A stretch of DNA of 64,000 nt, from positions 51,334 through 115,333 of the IMG/VR virus record IMGVR_UViG_3300047564_004641; one strand, written 5' to 3'. Positions 17,705 through 27,162 of the stretch are shown piece after piece (the stretch's first letter is position 1; every line of letters begins with the position of its first letter). This stretch comes from a virus. The notes below the pieces were generated by a model. That model had not been told where the DNA came from and searched no databases. It saw only the letters and a program-made list of their open reading frames with translations. The position numbers and the translations under genes were made by a program.

Positions 17705-18769
17705 TCATAAAGCATTTCCTCGCGGCAATATTTCATCAGGAAACTGGAAGTTTTCGTGAGGTTGATCTGTAGGAGCCATCCAAGCACGGAGGCCTTCGTT
17801 TAATAATATATTTTTTGTGTAAAATGTCTCAAATTCCGGGTCTTCCGCAGCACGAATTTCCTGACTTACAAAATCATAGGCCCTAAGATTGAGAGCCAAA
17901 CCAATAATGCCAATAGAACTAGTCCAGAGACCCATAACGGGAACAAAAAGCATGAAAAAATGTAACCAACGCTTATTGGAAAAAGCAATTCCAAAAATCT
18001 GCGACCAGAATCGGTTTGCAGTAACCATCGAATAAGTCTCTTCCTCTTGAGTCGGTTCAAATGCCTTGAAAGTGTTTGCTTGTTCGCCATCTTCAAATAA
18101 TGTATTTTCTACAGTTGCTCCATGAATCGCACAGAGCAGTGCTCCACCCAGTATACCAGCAACTCCCATCATATGGAAGGGGTTGAGGGTCCAGTTGTGG
18201 AAACCCTGAAGAAACAGAAGGAACCTAAAGATAGCAGCAACACCAAAGGATGGAGCAAAGAACCAACTGGATTGACCCAGTGGATACATCAGGAATACAG
18301 AAACAAATACAGCGATAGGACCAGAGAATGCGATTGCATTGTAAGGACGGATGCCTACAAGACGAGCAATCTCAAACTGTCGAAGCATAAAACCTATAAG
18401 AGCGAAGGCTCCGTGGAGCGCCACAAAAGTCCAGAGTCCCCCAAGTTGGCACCACCTGACGAAATCCCCTTGAGACTCAGGACCCCAAAGTAGAAGAAGA
18501 GAATGACCCATAGCATCTGCAGGCGTCGAAACAGCTGCTGTGAGGAAATTAGCACCCTCAAGGTAACTAGACGCCAACCCGTGGGTGTACCAGCTTGTAA
18601 CAAACGTTGTGCCAGTAAGCCAGCCACCAAGGGCCAAATAAGCAGTGGGAAAAAGAAGTAGTCCAGACCAGCCCACAAATACAAAGCGATCTCGTTTAAG
18701 CCAGTCATCCAAGACATCGAACCACCCCCTTTGTGAAATTGGTTGTGAAAGTGTTGACGAAACCATCAA
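17705..18769 (-). CDS. psbD: Photosystem II D2 protein
   Basis: 354 aa, full host length. D2 landmarks include the [18 protein letters not shown] first helix, [15 protein letters not shown], the chlorophyll/iron-binding [13 protein letters not shown], and the C-terminal [19 protein letters not shown]2 pairs with D1 in the reaction centre; phage copies keep photosynthesis running during infection. Driven by a promoter whose -10 box is fused to a late box (18790-18823). Confidence 0.98.
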
Positions 18770-18789: not shown

Positions 18790-18823
18790 TATTTATTGTA
18801 ATGTTTCTTAATCAGGAAGTCAA
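18790..18823 (-). promoter_or_regulatory. Composite sigma70/late promoter of psbD
   Basis: Minus strand TTGACT (18818-18823), 17-bp spacer, TACAAT (18795-18800) overlapping AATAAATA (18790-18797) in the combined string TACAATAAATA. It should be readable by host sigma70 early and by the phage gp55-type sigma late. The -35 box lies in the end of the thioredoxin gene. Confidence 0.75.
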
Positions 18824-19145: not shown

Positions 19146-19517
19146 TCAATAAGCATTTAGATATTCAATCATTTTTTGAAGTGTTTGAATATTATCTCCA
19201 ACAAGACCCAGTGCAGTATTGCAGTTATTGCAGAGGACACCGCGAACCTTATTTGTAGAGTGGCAGTGGTCTATACATTTCTTTGTTAGTTCCACATTAC
19301 ATATCTGACAGTTCTCATTTTTCATAAGTTCTGCGTATTGCTGTTCGGTAAGTTTGAACTTCCTACGCATAAATTCGTGAGGTTTATAGTATTGCCTACG
19401 ATTTTCAGTAGAACACTTTTTACATTTTGGTTGCAACCCAACACTACCAGAAGAATAAGTTCGTTTATGAAAAGAACTTTCTGGTAGAGATTGATTACAC
19501 TTAGAACAAACTTTCAT
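19146..19517 (-). CDS. Recombination endonuclease VII-like HNH protein next to psbA
   Basis: 123 aa. Zinc-binding CSKCNQSL and CKKCS pairs, KFKLTEQQYAELM, then the nuclease motif CIDHCHSTNKVRGVLCNNCN typical of the endonuclease VII family. It is a solo gene between psbA and thioredoxin with its own late promoter. In other cyanophages a free-standing endonuclease (F-CphI) sits in this spot beside psbA; this may be its counterpart. Confidence 0.82.
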   Translation of the reverse strand: MKVCSKCNQSLPESSFHKRTYSSGSVGLQPKCKKCSTENRRQYYKPHEFMRRKFKLTEQQYAELMKNENCQICNVELTKKCIDHCHSTNKVRGVLCNNCNTALGLVGDNIQTLQKMIEYLNAY

Positions 19518-19543: not shown

Positions 19544-19551
19544 TATTTATA
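19544..19551 (-). promoter_or_regulatory. T4-type late promoter box
   Basis: Perfect TATAAATA on the minus strand, directly after the psbA terminator T-run and 26 bp ahead of the endonuclease start. Confidence 0.8.
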
Positions 19552-19597: not shown

Positions 19598-20677
19598 TCA
19601 ACCGATTGTAGGAGCGGTAAGAGCAACAGGAGTTGCTTCTACGCTTGCAAGATCCAATGGAAAGTTATGTGCGTTTCTCTCATGGGACACCTCCATCCCG
19701 AGATTGGCACGGTTGAGTACATCAGCCCAGGTATTGATTACCTTACCCTGACTATCAACAATACTTTGATTAAAGTTGAAACCATTCAAATTGAAAGCCA
19801 TCGTAGAAACACCAAGAGCAGTGAACCAGATGCCTACAACGGGCCAGGCAGCGAGGAAGAAGTGCAGCGAACGAGAGTTGTTGAACGAAGCATATTGGAA
19901 GATCAGACGACCAAAGTAACCGTGTGCGGCAACGATGTTATAAGTCTCTTCTTCTTGACCGAACTTGTAACCATAGTTCTGCGACTCATTCTCAGTGGTT
20001 TCACGAACCAGCGAGGAAGTCACCAGTGAACCGTGCATCGCAGAGAACAGAGAACCACCGAAGACACCAGCAACTCCAAGCATATGGAAGGGGTGCATCA
20101 GAATGTTATGCTCTGCCTGGAACACAAGCATATAGTTGAAAGTACCAGAGATACCCAGAGGCATACCATCAGAGAAAGAACCTTGACCGAAAGGATAAAC
20201 CAGGAAAACAGCAGTAGCAGCAGCAACAGGTGCAGAATATGCTACGCAAATCCAAGGACGCATACCAAGACGATAGGAGAGTTCCCACTCACGTCCCATA
20301 TAAGAGAAAATACCGATGAGGAAGTGGAAGACTACCAGTTGGTAAGGACCACCGTTGTAAAGCCACTCATCAAGAGAGGCAGCTTCCCAGATGGGATAAA
20401 AGTGCAAGCCAATGGCGTTGCTTGAAGGAATAACAGCACCTGAAATGATGTTGTTTCCGTACATTAGCGAACCAGCAACTGGTTCACGGATGCCGTCAAT
20501 GTCTACAGGAGGTGCAGCAATGAAGGCGACGATGAAACAAATCGTTGCGGCAAGCAGCGTTGGAATCATCAGAGTACCGAACCAACCAACATAGAGGCGG
20601 TTGTTCGTTGAAGTAACCCACTCGCAGAATTGATCCCAAGTGGAAGTAGAACGTTGTTGTGAAATTGTAGCAGTCAT
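19598..20677 (-). CDS. psbA: Photosystem II D1 protein
   Basis: 359 aa with no intron. Key residues are in register with host D1: Tyr161, Asp170, Glu189, His190, His198, His337, Asp342 and Ala344 followed by a 15-residue C-terminal extension to be cleaved. Residue 130 is Glu (MGREWEL), the form linked to high-light D1 in cyanobacteria. Phage D1 replaces photodamaged host D1 so that energy supply continues. It has its own promoter (20842-20875), a ~160-nt leader with a CCCACAC/GTGTGGG hairpin, and its own terminator. Confidence 0.99.
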
Positions 20678-20841: not shown

Positions 20842-20875
20842 TATTTATCATAACAGTTCGTGAAGAACCTGTCAA
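20842..20875 (-). promoter_or_regulatory. Composite sigma70/late promoter of psbA
   Basis: Minus strand TTGACA (20870-20875), 17-bp spacer, TATGAT (20847-20852) overlapping GATAAATA (20842-20849), forming TATGATAAATA. The same design is seen at psbD and the porin gene. Suggests transcription both early and late. Confidence 0.78.
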
Positions 20876-25546: not shown

Positions 25547-27019
25547 TCAGAACGTGAACTTGGTCTGGATTACACCACCCCACTTAGCAGAGTCCTGATA
25601 ACGCTGATTGTTATCAACGTAGAACAGAGCAGGAGTGATGCTGATGTTATCAGACACTTGGAACTTGTAGAAGATTTCAACAAGAGTGGCGTCATCTACA
25701 CCTTTGGTATCAGCAGTAGGTGCTTGACCCACAGCAACTCCAGCAGAGTTACCCTTGAGGAAGACATCGCTCCACTGAAGACCAGCCATCCAGGACTGAC
25801 TATCAGTAGCATCAGTAACACCAGTAGTACCATTAACCCAGTTGTAACCGTAACCAGCACTGATTGAAGGAATCCAACCAGACTGTTCGGGTTGCCAGTA
25901 AGCGTTAACTGCAAGACCATTAGAAGTCTGACCGTCTACAAGAGTACCAGTAGCACCCAGGAGACCGTTGTAGGAGCGAGGACGGGTGCCTTCAGTACCA
26001 TAGCGGTATCCAACACCAACACCCCAGTTCTTACCACGATAACCGACTTGACCCAGCAGGTTCAGAGCACCATCTTCATTGAAGACGCCAGTAGAAGAGT
26101 TATCACCGTCCTGAGCGACATAGTTCAGACCAGCAACAAATCCACCATTACCAGCATACTGAATACCGAAACCAGCACCGAGTGCCTTATTATATACACC
26201 AGGAGTACCAGCAGTAGCAAAGAAGTCAAGGATTTCCGACTTATATGCGGAAGGAACCCAAGCAATCTCAGTGTTACGGACTTTAGCACCAGCAGTGATG
26301 GTGGTAGTGTCGTTAAACACAGGGAACTGATAATACAGACGATCAATAACTACGTTATCGCCAACTTCGCTAGAAGTGTTATCTGCTTTATCCAGTTTGA
26401 AAAGGGAACCCGAAGAAGCAAAAGGATCCGTGCTGAAGTTAGAAGAACGCAGACGAGTACGGAGCAGGTCCTTACCAGTGAAGCTGGTATCGAAGTTCAG
26501 ACGGACATCATAATTAAATGCGGTGTCGCCAACGTTTCCACCGTCATTAGTTTCAAGTCCAGGAACTCCACCCAGAACAAAGGTAGCCTCACCACGAAGT
26601 TTCGTAGTGGTAGAGAACTGAGTTGCTTCCAGTTGACCGACTTGTGCTTCCAGTTTATCTACACGACCACGGATAACGGCAAGTTCTTGAGCGAACTCTG
26701 CCTGAAGACGCTTCAGTTCATCGGTAACTTCAGTCACACGATCCAGGCAAGCATTCAGAAGAGCAGCTGCCTCATAACGGGTCATTGACTGACCACCACC
26801 ATAAGTGCCGTTAGGATAACCAGCAACACAACCATAACGCTCTACAAGGTTGTTGAGTGCTTGATATGCCCAATCGGTAGGACGAACATCAGAGAACTGT
26901 GAGATGCTCGTAACTTGAGATTCTACATAAGGTCCATAAGTGCCATAGGGTTCTGCGAACGCAGCACCAGCGACCAGTGGAGTTGCAGCAAGGGTTGCTG
27001 CGAAAGCGGATTTAAACAT
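25547..27019 (-). CDS. Cyanobacterial-type porin with SLH domain (OprB/Som family)
   Basis: 490 aa from MFKSAFAATLAATPLVAGAA, a clear signal peptide ending AFA. Then an S-layer-homology domain (FSDVRPTDWAYQALNNL, CVAGYPNGTY, MTRYEAAALLNACL) that binds peptidoglycan, a coiled-coil stem (DELKRLQAEFAQELAVIRGR) and a long beta-barrel ending in Phe (GVIQTKFTF), as in outer-membrane proteins. This is the layout of host porins of marine Synechococcus. A phage copy could change nutrient uptake or mask the receptor. Codon usage is like that of the neighbouring host-derived psbA. A longer start at 27121 lacks support. Confidence 0.92.
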   Translation of the reverse strand: MFKSAFAATLAATPLVAGAAFAEPYGTYGPYVESQVTSISQFSDVRPTDWAYQALNNLVERYGCVAGYPNGTYGGGQSMTRYEAAALLNACLDRVTEVTDELKRLQAEFAQELAVIRGRVDKLEAQVGQLEATQFSTTTKLRGEATFVLGGVPGLETNDGGNVGDTAFNYDVRLNFDTSFTGKDLLRTRLRSSNFSTDPFASSGSLFKLDKADNTSSEVGDNVVIDRLYYQFPVFNDTTTITAGAKVRNTEIAWVPSAYKSEILDFFATAGTPGVYNKALGAGFGIQYAGNGGFVAGLNYVAQDGDNSSTGVFNEDGALNLLGQVGYRGKNWGVGVGYRYGTEGTRPRSYNGLLGATGTLVDGQTSNGLAVNAYWQPEQSGWIPSISAGYGYNWVNGTTGVTDATDSQSWMAGLQWSDVFLKGNSAGVAVGQAPTADTKGVDDATLVEIFYKFQVSDNISITPALFYVDNNQRYQDSAKWGGVIQTKFTF

Positions 27020-27128: not shown

Positions 27129-27162
27129 TATTTATTGTACGCCAGATTTGATCTGGTGTCAA
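27129..27162 (-). promoter_or_regulatory. Composite sigma70/late promoter of the porin gene, with palindrome
   Basis: Minus strand TTGACA (27157-27162), 17-bp spacer, TACAAT (27134-27139) overlapping AATAAATA (27129-27136). The spacer is a perfect inverted repeat CCAGAT-CAA-ATCTGG (27141-27155), a possible operator. Confidence 0.75.

Follow-up and report, generated by a model that had tools for sequence, protein, structure and literature searches.

The 64,000-nucleotide stretch of viral DNA analysed here (the window) carries on its minus strand psbA (19598–20677), encoding the 359 amino acid photosystem II D1 protein (PF00124, E = 2e-91), psbD (17705–18766), encoding the 353 amino acid D2 protein (Photo_RC in Pfam) from an ATG that follows GGAGG, and a gene (25547–27019) for a 490 amino acid OprB-family porin with an SLH domain (OprB, E = 4e-15), 70.5% identical to the annotated porin of phage S-SRM01. 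These Pfam matches agree with the gene identities in the original prediction from which this work began. The psbA 5′ leader contains a PhotoRC-II structured RNA (RF01717; 20717–20811, minus strand; 80.1 bits, gathering score 39). Also on the window's minus strand are a wcaG RNA (RF01761; 44195–44295) and a glutamine riboswitch (RF01739; 5745–5834), and between psbA and the thioredoxin and psbD genes lies an endonuclease VII-like gene (19146–19517, minus strand) with a late box of its own.

Upstream of psbA, psbD and the porin gene, on the same strand, are three sites in which a sigma70-type promoter and a T4-type late box overlap. The psbA composite (20842–20875) comprises a -35 hexamer TTGACA (20870–20875), a 17-bp spacer (20853–20869), a -10 hexamer TATGAT (20847–20852) and a late octamer GATAAATA (20842–20849) that has 3 bp in common with the -10 element. 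At psbD (18790–18823) the corresponding parts are TTGACT (18818–18823), the spacer (18801–18817), TACAAT (18795–18800) and AATAAATA (18790–18797), and at the porin gene (27129–27162) they are TTGACA (27157–27162), the spacer (27140–27156), TACAAT (27134–27139) and again AATAAATA (27129–27136). The full sites thus read TTGACA-N17-TATGATAAATA for psbA, TTGACT-N17-TACAATAAATA for psbD and TTGACA-N17-TACAATAAATA for the porin. Each has the elements of a sigma70-type promoter (a TTGACA-like -35, a TANNNT -10 and 17 ± 1 bp between them), with 17 bp in all three and 18 bp in a few composites of relatives. Each also ends in a late-promoter box, NATAAATA or CTAAATA close upstream of a phage gene, both of which are enriched in such positions in seven cyanophage genomes (see below).

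The geometry is fixed: numbering from the first base of the -10 hexamer, the hexamer occupies positions 1–6 and the late octamer positions 4–11. By standard spacing, sigma70 would start transcription at position 13 and gp55 about 4 nt further on, at position 17. On the minus strand this predicts starts at ~20840 (sigma70) and ~20836 (gp55) for psbA, ~18788 and ~18784 for psbD (leader ~20 nt) and ~27127 and ~27123 for the porin (leader ~105 nt). As both predicted psbA starts are upstream of the PhotoRC-II RNA, either would yield the same structured leader.

The coordinates originally proposed for the sites proved exact, all three matching the pattern TTGAC-N18-TAYRATAAATA on the minus strand. 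Dinucleotide shuffles of the window gave an expectation of 0.01 matches against the 3 observed, and none of 100 shuffles reached 3. The three sites are the only matches in the whole 115,333-base record, in which the reversed control pattern has none. It had also been proposed that the late extension is missing from other early promoters of the window, and this is the case: AAATA follows 3 of the 28 TTGAC-N17..19-TANNNT matches and none of the other 25. Conversely, no -35 element accompanies the window's remaining promoter-proximal late boxes, where the sequence at the equivalent distance differs from TTGACA at 2–6 positions. At 19550 and 24121 (minus strand), a late box comes straight after an intrinsic terminator, with its hairpin and T-run; examples of this arrangement are GACCCGAAAGGGTCTCTTTTTTTATAAATA, before the endonuclease VII-like gene, and AAGGAGGGTTAAAACCCTCCTTTTTTAATAAATA, before a peptidase C39-like gene. 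The same is seen at porin loci of relatives where sigma70 site and late box are split (CCCCAGAAACATCTGGGAATTATAAATA), and terminator and late promoter look to be built as one unit.

The late promoter of T4, TATAAATA, is recognised by gp55 acting with gp33 and gp45 (PMC2988020); in phage Aeh1 the late box is CTAAATA (PMC1524935). Each of the six complete cyanophage genomes examined encodes a gp55 homologue, two of these proteins being confirmed as late sigma factors (phrog_234). No gp55 was found in the 115-kb record, which is a fragment; in S-SRM01 gp55 lies ~65 kb upstream of psbA, and the same place would fall beyond the end of our record. Among the possible late-box forms, only ATAAATA and CTAAATA are enriched 5–80 nt before open reading frames in the seven cyanophage genomes, and not GTAAATA or TTAAATA. 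In Syn9, for example, 19/38 A forms and 13/25 C forms are so placed, against 4/43 and 3/26 for the G and T forms, and in T4 the A form alone is enriched (30/65 versus 1/31 for the C form). Since ATAAATA is palindromic its own reverse is useless as a control, and reversed CTAAATA and the opposite letters were used instead. CTAAATA is a second late-box form beside ATAAATA in all cyanophage genomes examined, though not in T4. The downstream half of the composite thus resembles the late boxes of both T4 (A form) and Aeh1 (CTAAATA), cyanophages using the two together; canonical T4 late promoters, however, have no -35 element, unlike the composites in the window.

To what extent are the two halves bound to each other? 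Across 3.4 Mb of cyanophage DNA there are 124 unique sites with TTGAC exactly 27 nt ahead of ATAAATA, against a mean of 1.58 at other offsets, and 47 with it at that distance ahead of CTAAATA, against a mean of 0.83. No such peak exists for GTAAATA (0 sites) or TTAAATA (1 site), which rules out a composition effect as its source. In the same DNA, the five bases that follow unique TTGACA-N17-TANNNT sites are AAATA in 91 of 423 cases, the second commonest 5-mer being found 10 times. Hexamer position 5 is A or C in 156 of 157 composites, but G or T in 85 of 506 other sigma70-like sites (Fisher P = 9e-10), and TA is found at hexamer positions 1–2 in 16 of 17 exact-register sites; among late-only boxes the figure is 31 of 283, the background level. 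Together with the enrichment of the A and C forms in cyanophages, the A/C rule means that the downstream half of the composite obeys the rule for late boxes in the phage itself; the upstream half obeys sigma70. Spacers diverge whilst both elements stay fixed, giving 33 psbA, 14 psbD and 25 porin classes that differ by more than 3 nt. Because the loci are related, simple counts overstate their independence and these spacer-distinct classes are the fairer measure. The claim that host sigma70-type and T4-late (gp55-type) elements overlap is thereby upheld, in a single register that is conserved in relatives, and shuffles, whole-record scans and the register peak together rule out a chance origin.

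In relatives, the composite does not occur at random positions but is concentrated before psbA, psbD and porin genes. It is found at 46 of 54 T4-like psbA loci and at none of 17 T7-like ones (Fisher P = 1e-10). Three T4-like psbA loci (L158, L187 and L195) have sigma70 elements without the late extension. None of 77 cyanobacterial psbA loci has the composite, ruling out a host origin for the psbA promoter. The composite tracks the transcription machinery rather than the gene.

At psbD, the composite is present upstream in 45 of 73 loci. A further 22 loci have neither signal, and in 13 of these psbA ends no more than 160 nt upstream, so that psbD may there be read from psbA. The psbD gene of P-HM2 has no composite of its own. 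In several relatives (L204, L229 and L275, for example) the spacer of the psbD composite contains a direct repeat, TGTTAAG-N3-TGTTAAG, with its halves one helical turn apart, which may be a regulator site. A Pho box was considered, as TAAG-N6-TAAG is close to the reverse complement of the cyanobacterial box, but was not adopted because the published box has N7.

Among 77 porin loci, 48 have the fused form and in 22 the sigma70 site and the late box stand separately; both signals are thus present in 70 of 77, compared with ~4% of random windows. At some split loci a sigma70 promoter farther upstream (L295 at -370, L310 at -309 and L325 at -293) bears a near-perfect inverted repeat, TTGACATAATACTCATTATGTCTTATAAT, across its -35 element and spacer, which looks like an operator.

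Loci fetched by way of psbA, psbD or porin genes are biased by design with respect to gene specificity, and for this question we therefore used whole records and a gene-blind scan of IMG/VR. Twenty-two whole records (19 cyanophages plus T4, RB49 and Aeh1) contain 29 strict composites, with none in T4, RB49 or Aeh1 and no match to the reversed pattern. The downstream genes are psbA (13), psbD (5), an outer-membrane protein family (5), porin (1), talC (1) and others (4), with only 1–3 composites per genome. The outer-membrane family is of the T4-GC241 type, annotated as DUF680 in P-HM2, P-SSM4 and S-SSM7, and corresponds to Pfam PF24653 ('Cyanophage outer membrane protein like beta barrel'). With N17 spacing, two gene-blind scans each gave at least 120 matches; among the matches listed, at least 80 have psbA downstream, at least 26 a PF24653-type gene and at least 15 a porin gene. 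The wrong-spacing control (N20) gave 26 matches in all, with none of these genes downstream of the 16 classifiable sites. In five gene-blind matches the site lies inside a tail-sheath gene, where the PHROG match starts at profile position 295; these are probably chance matches within the gene. In some phages the composite precedes the gene for the single-strand DNA-binding protein gp32 (phrog_224; IMG/VR loci L671, L674 and L589). To tie the composite to host-derived genes alone is too narrow, as the class also takes in the T4-like gp32 gene and a few hypothetical genes. Both elements are nonetheless selectively conserved before a small set of genes, in phages that bear gp55.

Taken together, the register, the letter rule and the distribution make it likely, in our judgement, that each site is a dual-specificity promoter, serving one gene in one direction and read by host sigma70 polymerase and then by gp55 polymerase. 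Before or midway through infection, host RNA polymerase with a sigma70-type factor would read TTGACA-N17-TAnnnT. Once replication starts, polymerase carrying gp55, with gp33 and the gp45 clamp, would read the late octamer N[A/C]TAAATA, which takes the final three bases of the -10 hexamer as its own first three. With starts ~4 nt apart, essentially one mRNA would be made either way. The effect would be that D1, D2 and outer-membrane proteins are still expressed when gp55 takes over transcription from host sigma. A late box alone would suffice for late expression, given that T4 late promoters need no -35, and the fusion need not work in both ways everywhere. More broadly, T4-like cyanophages may have a distinct class of hand-over promoter, a proposal to which we give even chances. 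Such promoters would serve replaceable membrane proteins (D1, D2, a large porin and the PF24653 barrel) along with gp32 and a few others, fusing sigma70 and late sites in one register so that output is handed from host to phage sigma within one start region, and evolution would alternate between fused and separate forms with both signals kept.

When would the two halves act? In a 2016 study of Syn9, middle genes reportedly had host-like promoters and early genes another element, which makes 'middle' a better term than 'early' for the sigma70 half. The original prediction that these genes stay on throughout infection is probably too strong, and a middle-to-late hand-over is the safer wording. 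In a rival reading, the overlap is a middle-mode promoter in the sense of RB49, early-type and late boxes together defining one intermediate time class rather than continuous expression. Overlapping early and late promoters have been proposed for middle genes of RB49, S-PM2 and Syn9, and cyanomyoviruses have neither motA nor asiA (reviewed in PMC2984593). Those promoters and our sites alike place one gene under elements of sigma70 and gp55 type, in phages without MotA and AsiA. In the relative P-HM2, moreover, every auxiliary metabolic gene, among them psbA and psbD, belongs to the middle expression cluster (PMC5082946) and none to both middle and late, which also weighs against the dual-specificity reading. 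Against this, most middle genes have no composite, there being only 1–3 per genome, and psbA transcripts of S-PM2 are still measurable late in infection and increase in high light (PMC5931967). The RB49-type overlap concerns homologues of T4 middle genes, whereas the fused form described here is mostly on host-derived and membrane-protein genes. We regard the middle-mode reading as possible, if somewhat doubtful.

The overlap itself could have another purpose. With 3 bp shared, the two elements cannot be occupied jointly, and the site might act as a mutually exclusive switch, in which gp55 polymerase replaces sigma70 transcription on the shared DNA and confers a different level or light response late in infection. 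That the two elements are fused, and not in tandem, at 48 of the 77 porin loci fits this reading; the 22 that manage without fusion show that exclusivity is not essential, and we think such a switch unlikely.

Another reading is a plain sigma70 promoter, never used by gp55, in which AAATA acts as an A/T-rich discriminator and adjusts promoter opening or initiation. A/T-rich DNA just downstream of the -10 element eases melting, hexamers and spacing are good at all three window sites, and three T4-like psbA loci have sigma70 elements alone. The extension is, however, one specific 5-mer, with position 5 confined to the phage late-box alphabet; it is missing from T7-like and host psbA, and the same heptamer stands as a separate box at unfused porin loci. 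A discriminator is in consequence a very improbable account. Least credible of all is a plain T4-type late promoter with a -35 element by chance, for although late boxes are common (549 [AC]TAAATA in the seven genomes), the single sharp register peak, the TA at the start of the hexamer and the gene specificity all speak against it.

The fused sigma70/gp55 motif at psbA is not new. Puxty et al. (2018, ISME J, PMC5931967) found that psbA of cyanomyoviruses is preceded by sigma70 -35 and -10 motifs, the latter containing a gp55 site. Their psbA promoter motifs 3 and 6, from S-PM2d and relatives, are like those reported here, and both early and late expression were proposed for them. The psbA site in the window and those at the 46 T4-like psbA loci have this arrangement. 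Unlike the present analysis, that study treated psbA only, by motif discovery, with no psbD, porin or other genes, register statistics, A/C rule or split form. As far as the literature searched shows, what appears to be new is the presence of the composite at psbD, at porin genes and at PF24653-type genes for a small outer-membrane protein, the quantified register, the A/C rule, the lack of the composite at T7-like and host psbA, and the alternation of fused and split forms at porin loci.

If both halves of the dual-specificity promoter are used, the phage would have a simple means, at the level of DNA, of maintaining the supply of envelope proteins and of those for photosystem II repair while one sigma factor gives way to the other, and would need no further regulator for it. 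The pattern of the site is predictive, flagging host-derived genes that may be under dual control in metagenomic viral DNA. The predictions made at base level, of starts ~4 nt apart that would be separable by late-only and -35-only mutations, bear on how cyanomyoviruses carry out middle transcription without MotA and AsiA.
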